Positions 54,315 through 56,443 of a DNA stretch of 64,000 nt are shown here, piece by piece (position 1 is the stretch's first letter; every line of letters begins with the position of its first letter). The stretch spans positions 31,849-95,848 of the forward strand of contig CABIIJ010000058.1 of assembly GCA_902175065.1 (NCBI GenBank). Reading direction: 5' to 3'. The notes beneath the pieces were generated by a model that saw only the letters and a program-made list of their open reading frames with translations, made no database searches and was not told the origin of the DNA. The translations under genes and the position numbers were made by a program. The stretch comes from an uncultured Comamonas sp. (lineage in GTDB: Bacteria > Pseudomonadota > Gammaproteobacteria > Burkholderiales > Burkholderiaceae_C).

Positions 54315-55538
54315 ATGCACCCTCACGCCGAAACGCTATGGCGCGGGCCGCGCTGGACACTGGCCATCTTGCTGGCCGTGCTGGGCATGCTGGGCCCCTT
54401 CTCGATCGACACCTACCTGCCCGCCTTCTCGGGCATTGCCGCCTCGCTGCAGACCTCGCCGGTGCACATGCAGCAAACGCTGTCGGCCTACCTGTTCGGC
54501 TTTGCCTTCATGAACCTGTTTCACGGGGCGCTGGCCGACAGCTTTGGCCGCCGCCCGGTGATTTTGTGGGGGCTGCTGGCCTTCACCCTGGCCAGCGCCG
54601 GCTGCGCCCTGGCGCAGAACGTGACGCAACTCATCGTTTGCCGGGCGCTGCAAGGGCTGTCCTGCGGCGCTGGCGTGGTGGTTTCACGGGCCATCGTGCG
54701 CGACATGTTCCCCCACACCCAGGCGCAGAAGGTGATGAGCCAGATCACCATCTTCTTCGGCCTGGCCCCGGCAATTGCCCCCATCCTGGGCGGCTGGCTG
54801 TTCGTCGCCCTGGGCTGGCACAGCATTTTCTGGCTGCTGACCGCCATCGGGGCGGCCCTGTGGACGGTCAATTTCAAAGTGCTGCCCGAGTCCCTGCACC
54901 CCAGCCAGCGCCAGCCGTTCAACGTGCGCCACCTGCTCAGTGGCTATTGGGAGCTGTGTACCGATCCGCGCTTTCTGCTGCTGGCGCTGGCCAGCGGGGT
55001 GCCGTTCAACGGCATGTTCCTGTACGTGCTCTCGGCCCCGGCATTCCTGGGCGAGCTGCTGCACCTGGAGCCGACGCAGTTCTTCTGGCTGTTCGTGCTG
55101 AACATCGGCGGCATCATGGGCGGCGCCTGGGTCAGCGGCCAGCTGGCCGGGAAAATCGCGCCGAAGAAGCAGATCCGCCACGGCCTGCTCATCATGCTGG
55201 TGATCTCGCTGGTCAACCTCGGGGCGAACCTGCTGCTGCCCCTGCATCCCGGCTGGGCCATGCTGCCGATTGCGATTTTTTCCTTCGGCTGGGCGCTGAT
55301 GGTGCCGGTCGTCACCCTGCTGGTGCTGGATTTGTTCCCGCAGCGCCGGGGCATGGCCTCGTCCCTGCAGGCGGTGGTCGGCTCCACCGCCAACGGGCTG
55401 GTCGCCGGTCTGCTGGCGCCGCTGGTCATGCACTCGGCCATCGCGCTGGCCAGCGCCTCGCTGGGCTTGATGCTGATCGGCCTGGTTTCCTGGATCGTGT
55501 TGCACCAGCGCTGGCCGGAGATCGGGCGGGACAATTAA
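54315..55538 (+). CDS. Bcr/CflA family multidrug efflux MFS transporter
   Basis: LGPFSIDTYLPAFSGIAASLQTSPVHMQQTLSAYLFGFA; 12-TM pattern. Confidence 0.93.
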   Translation: MHPHAETLWRGPRWTLAILLAVLGMLGPFSIDTYLPAFSGIAASLQTSPVHMQQTLSAYLFGFAFMNLFHGALADSFGRRPVILWGLLAFTLASAGCALAQNVTQLIVCRALQGLSCGAGVVVSRAIVRDMFPHTQAQKVMSQITIFFGLAPAIAPILGGWLFVALGWHSIFWLLTAIGAALWTVNFKVLPESLHPSQRQPFNVRHLLSGYWELCTDPRFLLLALASGVPFNGMFLYVLSAPAFLGELLHLEPTQFFWLFVLNIGGIMGGAWVSGQLAGKIAPKKQIRHGLLIMLVISLVNLGANLLLPLHPGWAMLPIAIFSFGWALMVPVVTLLVLDLFPQRRGMASSLQAVVGSTANGLVAGLLAPLVMHSAIALASASLGLMLIGLVSWIVLHQRWPEIGRDN

Positions 55539-55543
55539 AAGAG

Positions 55544-55635
55544 TAGCTGCTTTCGCTTGTATTCATTGATCTTCAAAGATAAAACACTTTGAAATCAAAC
55601 AATAACAAGCGCAAGCAGCTATTGATTTTATTTAT
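55544..55635. repeat. Intergenic palindromic repeat, copy 8
   Basis: TAGCTGCTTTCGCTTGT/ACAAGCGCAAGCAGCTA (16/17), inner CTTCAAAG/CTTTGAA. Confidence 0.85.
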
Positions 55636-55660
55636 ACCTGCTGCTGGCCGTATCCCCTAA

Positions 55661-55822
55661 GAACCTGTTTACGATCTCAGCGCGAAGGGGTGCGGGATGC
55701 GGATCGGGATGGGCTGCAAGGCGCAAACCGCAGCGATAGCCGGAGCTATCGCGAGGATTTGCAACGCCGCAGAGCGCCCGAGGCCGCGACTGCACACCCG
55801 CGTGGAGATCGTAAACAGGTTC
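55661..55822. mobile_element. 162 bp MITE-like element
   Basis: Perfect 18 bp TIRs GAACCTGTTTACGATCTC ... GAGATCGTAAACAGGTTC, flanked by TAA (55658-55660 and 55823-55825); internal hairpin GCGATAGC-CGGA-GCTATCGC. Confidence 0.85.
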
Positions 55823-55849
55823 TAACAGCCAGGCAGCAAAACAGCACCG

Positions 55850-56443
55850 TTACCCGGCCAGCTTTCCCGCCACTTCCACCAGCCGTTTCGCCTGGTGCCC
55901 GATCGAAGCCTGCACCTCCGACGTGAATTCCGCTCCCTGGGTATGGCTGTACCCATAGGGATTGCCGCCGGTTTTGAAGATCGCCGGGTCGGTAAACCCC
56001 GGGGCCACGATGATGCTGCCCCAGTGCATGGCGGAGTAATAGAAGGTCAGCAGCGTCGACTCCTGCCCGCCATGCGCGTTTTGCGCCGAGGTCATGGCCG
56101 ACACTGCCTTGTTCGCCAGACCGCCCTTGGCCCAGAAACCGCCCAGCGTGTCGATGAAGGCCCGCATCTGGCTGGCCATGCCGCCAAAGCGCGTGGGGGC
56201 GCTGAACAGATAGGCGTCGGCCCATTCCATATCGGCCACGGTGGCGGTGGGGATATGGGCCATGGCGTCCGCCTGGGCCTTCCAGGCCGCTTGCCCCTCC
56301 ACCACGGCAGCAGGGACGGTTTCCGCGACTTTCAAGAGCCGCACTTCCGCGCCTGCAGCCTTGGCCGCTTCGGCAGCGATGCTGGCCATTTGGTAGTTGG
56401 TGCCATAGGTGGAGTAATAGACCACTGCAAGTTTGACGCTCAT
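55850..56443 (-). CDS. wrbA: NAD(P)H:quinone oxidoreductase, WrbA family
   Basis: [62 protein letters not shown]. Confidence 0.95.

Follow-up and report, generated by a model that had tools for sequence, protein, structure and literature searches.

The 162-bp element at positions 55661 to 55822 of the window (the whole 64,000-nucleotide stretch of Comamonas DNA analysed here) is a genuine, recently mobile and non-autonomous MITE of the IS5 family, and the structured hairpin module in its interior is a unit that, with both of its arms, is common to MITEs with unrelated terminal inverted repeats (TIRs). MITEs are commonly regarded as derived by internal deletion from a single insertion sequence (IS), to which they are tied by their TIRs. 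Here the relation is reversed, in that the interior is conserved and the TIRs vary, and one fold recurs over many genera in elements that have to rely on different transposases; the long-standing question of why many bacterial MITEs are giant hairpins becomes directly testable. The overall explanation that we favor, and consider quite probable, combines an IS5-family MITE, a shared module, mobilization in trans and selection on the hairpin, the last of these being a component that we advance only tentatively.

The boundaries that the first-pass annotation had given to the element are exact to the base when the sequence is read directly. The 18-bp TIRs, GAACCTGTTTACGATCTC at the left (55661 to 55678, plus strand) and GAGATCGTAAACAGGTTC at the right (55805 to 55822, minus strand), are perfect inverted copies of one another that recur in the genome and at sister copies, and the TAA on either side (55658 to 55660 and 55823 to 55825), which is not counted in the 162 bp, represents a target duplication of the TNA type also seen at the sister copies. 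The element lies, as had been noted, before the 3' end of the convergent wrbA gene (minus strand, 55850 to 56443), on the other side being the 3' end of an MFS transporter gene (plus strand, ending at 55538). The earlier view that the interior holds no plausible gene is borne out by the listing of open reading frames in the window, where no credible gene was found inside the 162 bp and the sole frame to touch the interior is a mechanical 159-aa minus-strand ORF that enters from within wrbA. Beside the MITE, at 55543 to 55622, is an AT-rich palindrome with GC-rich feet (the "palindrome copy 8" of that annotation). Sequences resembling this palindrome (about 72-83% identity), which came to light in the empty-site flank search described below (query 1049-1139 and 2485-2580), occur by the dozens in related Comamonas genomes, often near gene ends and MITEs.

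The draft genome to which the window belongs (3.2 Mb, 103 contigs) contains about 18 near-complete copies of the element, this one included, with 83-98% identity, and 92 matches to the TIR with no more than three mismatches, as compared to a single match for a reversed control pattern, a number far above chance. Most copies are flanked on both sides by duplicated TAA, TTA or TCA, and in a few the duplication is absent or has one base changed. When the flanks of 14 copies were joined without the element and run against relatives, base-exact empty sites were found in the related genome G005, where the flanks of two copies (L011 and L006) align straight over the junction with a single TAA and those of a third (L003) with a single TTA; for a fourth (L013), the alignment spans the junction save for a one-base gap. 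The wrbA locus of G005 is 93% identical and lacks the element, but was rejected as a base-exact empty site because its flanking bases differ as well, and for this reason the exact empty sites were sought at other copies. The multiple near-identical copies with TNA duplications and the empty sites in relatives that had been predicted for a non-autonomous IS5-type element are both present, and neither of the two observations named as adverse to that prediction, a single conserved copy and a lack of empty-site alleles, describes these genomes. Transposition itself was not observed, and the mobile-element reading is drawn from the copies, the target duplications, the empty sites, the element-free wrbA locus and autonomous partners with the same TIR. 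Several copies are located exactly at stop codons, which are left whole by a TNA duplication; it is likely that insertion generally takes place at TNA, often at stop codons, with the duplication preserving the stop.

The autonomous elements that match the MITE are IS5-family insertion sequences of ~845 bp (NF033580), some with an identical TIR. Those of Comamonas odontotermitis (G008) are 843 bp long and have the TIR GAACCTGTTCAAAGTCT, TNA duplications and a transposase, split over two frames, that matches PF13340, PF01609 and NCBIfam NF033580 (IS5 family). An 848-bp IS in G046 carries the TIR GAACGTGTTTACGATCT, the homologs in G046 and G052, and those at the starts of G005 contigs, carry TIRs of this class, which is that of the MITE, and in G005 the C-termini of transposases run into the same TIR. 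The same GAACGTGTTTACGATCT is found at several MITE copies of the window's own genome and is one base from the TIR of the window copy; the autonomous ends have the same 17 bp as the left TIR, with C/G variation at base 5. Pairs of TIRs spaced 1.3-1.6 kb apart in G005 were considered as possible autonomous elements and discarded, as the sequence between them holds ordinary host genes. In the window's own genome, a draft assembly in which IS copies end at contig ends, no intact IS carrying the exact TIR was found; at least six such truncated copies all have the AAAGTCT form of the TIR (GAACCTGTTCAAAGTCT), which is more diverged, and MITEs with this form occur elsewhere (e.g., L092). The contig of the window itself ends inside an IS5-family element (G000:C58:95711-95848), and the assembly breaks caused by this IS number six or more (this contig and five other contig ends, L215-L220). 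At a locus of another genome (L225, G047:C14), an IS5-family element has inserted precisely at the TAA that separates two TIR-like ends, GTTC-TAA-GAAC, suggesting a preference for element junctions as targets.

These data place the MITE in the group with DUF4096 + DDE_Tnp_1 transposases and TNA target duplications. The MITE resembles the IS5_3 group (NF033580 transpos_IS5_3; PF13340 + PF01609) in its TIR class (GAACSTGTTTACGATCT in relatives), in its TNA duplication and in being a short non-autonomous derivative. The likeness is confined to the ends, however, since the autonomous copies that were read are without the hairpin module. A transposase from the ~845-bp elements would probably recognize the TIRs of the MITE and act on them in trans.

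The strong nested hairpin that the first-pass annotation saw in the interior is real, but its description was incomplete, as the hairpin is a conserved module common to MITEs with other TIRs. Taken as a single strand, the plus strand of the whole element forms one long hairpin of -101.3 kcal/mol (z = -10.4; 0 of 200 shuffles folded equally well). The module occupies 55698 to 55786 on the plus strand, where it scores 102.8 bits with a covariance model (R1), and was delimited by alignment, by covariation and by its sharing with a second MITE family in the same genome. This second family (about 20 members, TIR GGATCCTCTGCACRAATCG, YTAR duplication) and the 162-bp family have only the central 90 bp in common, with 88/90 bases identical over this core and 22% identity in the left flank just outside it. 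In a third family (266 bp, TIR GAACCTGTTCACGATCTT), the same core lies between outer and apical stems that are different, and in one member of 174 bp the outer stem is that of the GAACCTGTTCACGATCTT family and the apex that of the 162-bp family; the layers of the hairpin have therefore been shuffled as pairs of arms. The core is also enclosed by a fourth type of TIR in this genome (GGAAGCNCTGCAAANCCCC, with CTTG flanks; G000:C52, L079 1259-1347).

Automated end-finding and the reading of loci gave a longer series of enclosing TIRs, namely GAACSTGTTYACGATCTC, GAACCTGTTCAAAGTCTC, GGATGCTCTGCACRAATC, GGAAGCNCTGCAAANCCCC, GGGAAACGCTGAACAAGTC, GGAACCTCTGAACAAGTCC, GGGCTCGTTAATGAATAAC, GGCGTCGAGAAACAATAAC, GGAGCCTGTCGGACTTAA, GAGCCTATTTCAGTAGGTT, GGGCCTGTTAATACTAATC, GGGCGTGTTAACGCTATTTT, AGTGTAGTGTTTCG, AGTGTCCTATCCCGTAG and others, at least 10 of which are clearly different sequences and some of which may be divergent relatives of one another; at least three of these types are held by one genome (G031). 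In larger elements, a second, inverted and weaker match to the core is found about 108 bp away. It might be supposed that the core is a hairpin with a mobility of its own, able to insert into the loops of hairpins in other elements, the MITEs being mere targets, and the occurrence of the same core in different TIR backgrounds, the finding of stems that match except for the presence or absence of the core at their apex and the pairs of inverted copies in some elements are all compatible with this idea. We nevertheless consider it very unlikely: no target duplication was seen at the borders of the core, a clean-bordered core outside an element was not demonstrated, and apex deletion accounts for the forms from which the core is absent. 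Two further observations concern these element families. Short units like CCCCTAACCGGGCG and GGGCGCCCGGCTAGG lie in variable number beside the core in some Comamonas MITEs (L157, L153, L154, L090 and L107). The TIR GAACCTGTTTACGATCTT, which is the same as that of the MITE, bounds AT-rich MITEs with TNA duplications and no R1 core (L122 3634-3793, L127 2755-2913, L132 1254-1410) in a metagenome-assembled genome labelled Parcubacteria (GC 43-46%); this points either to a TIR that crosses phyla or to contamination of the bin.

From the outside inward, the module consists of an outer stem, a WA bulge, a GGCG/CGCC stem, a CAA bulge on the 3' side, a variable stem, a GCA/GA internal loop and a variable apical stem. 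When 28 cores from several genera were aligned (MAFFT, not fitted to structure), 18 of the 25 pairs of a structure derived by eye from these same aligned sequences are changed on both sides. The paired cells amount to 92.4%, as compared to 30-43% with the partner slid, none of 500 shuffles reached any of the pairing measures, and RNAalifold, unaided, proposed 23 pairs, 18 of them with changes on both sides. The bulge bases, A and CAA, show 90-96% conservation across 69 non-redundant cores, in which most stem bases drift (unpaired versus paired bases, one-sided p = 0.02).

Template switching and apex deletions occur readily in long palindromes. An ordinary MITE with a functionless palindrome, in which the core is shared through recombination, copying and horizontal transfer and the covariation reflects templated correction between the arms, is an explanation to be weighed, and the existence of coreless elements with target duplications, together with a strand bias that is not proven (48 G-T cells versus 35 A-C cells, p = 0.19), is in keeping with it. 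We regard it as rather unlikely. Templated correction in palindromes could yield some of the paired changes in the absence of selection, but it should also erase conserved bulges; the asymmetric bulges have persisted over many genera while the surrounding stems were rewritten, which is the opposite of what arm homogenization produces, and the core goes with at least 10 TIR sequences.

The occurrence of the hairpin in many unrelated elements across Proteobacteria suggests that it helps such elements to spread. We infer, tentatively and with less than even confidence, that selection acts on the bulged hairpin at the level of the element and that the hairpin works in single-stranded, folded form (extruded DNA, lagging-strand DNA or RNA), which a widespread host or element factor would recognize, so that core-bearing elements would spread best. 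The hairpin may move between TIR families by the exchange of whole layers, for example through template switching on folded single strands; equivalently, a lineage of elements may retain its core while exchanging its TIRs so as to exploit another transposase. Among the C. odontotermitis elements, the lengths that occur repeatedly (265-266, 279-280 and 307 bp) are core-bearing where they were read and each of the coreless elements that were read (50, 52, 60, 201, 217, 229 and 260 bp) is unique, a pattern that is only suggestive of a core-bearing form that multiplies and of coreless forms that arise as later apex deletions. Transposition may be possible without the core, as coreless elements with intact target duplications exist. 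A different role, in the RNA of transcripts that read through the ends of genes, in which the hairpin would be an mRNA stabilizer, a nuclease site or an attenuator and would make insertions tolerable or useful to the host, fits the frequent position of the elements directly against stop codons and the folding of the window copy, which is ~10 kcal/mol better for the model-orientation strand than for its complement. Such a role appears unlikely to us, as the orientation relative to co-directional genes is inconsistent between genomes (10 opposite and 2 same in the window's own genome, 3 opposite and 5 same elsewhere), the U-tract of an intrinsic terminator is absent and the excess of G-T over A-C cells is not significant. 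A strand-specific RNA is unsupported by these cell counts or by gene orientation.

The attC sites of integrons are hairpins with extrahelical bases, an unpaired spacer-like loop and a variable apical stem. The module shares all three features, but the R boxes RYYYAAC and GTTRRRY occur together in 0 of the 69 cores, and no cassette or integrase context was seen. Among REP sequences, the GTAG and CGTC superfamilies have been distinguished (PMC3733652), and their members are also extragenic palindromes that occur repeatedly, have conserved features and form inverted dimers. The module, by contrast, has a longer fold, lies inside TIR-bounded elements and is without a conserved tag, as GTAG/CTAC is present anywhere in 13/69 cores and CGTC/GACG in 38/69, and neither is conserved at the foot. 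The bacterial hairpin MITEs NEMIS, RUP, ERIC and Nezha (PMC3733652) are likewise short, bounded by TIRs, built on a long hairpin and found adjoining genes; the present elements differ from those listed in having a conserved bulged core that is common to different TIRs and target duplications. Rfam 15 gave nothing at or above gathering score, the only matches being to miRNA precursors far below it, and no description of the module was found in the open-licence literature (ISfinder being outside the scope of the search). The class of MITEs is already known, and the hairpin core, as judged from Rfam and the open-licence papers, appears to be an undescribed variant. That this hairpin family, which would be defined by its conserved bulges and covarying stems, is the heritable core of widespread proteobacterial MITEs that swap their TIRs and transposases, with the core binding a conserved cellular factor, is a conjecture that we put forward as possible though somewhat improbable.

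Model R1, which could annotate many unlabelled intergenic repeats, found matches (E <= 1e-4) in 65 of 150 genomes of the order, in 46 of 91 genera, and in 59 of 299 genomes of the phylum, with many genera of a single distant family among them, counts that are lower bounds owing to strict filters and the few candidates scored per genome. Phages gave no match to the core. In three genomes of the distant family, very similar core-like hairpins are found within the same AT-rich flanks (L295, L296 and L299), possibly an old copy that has become fixed at one locus.
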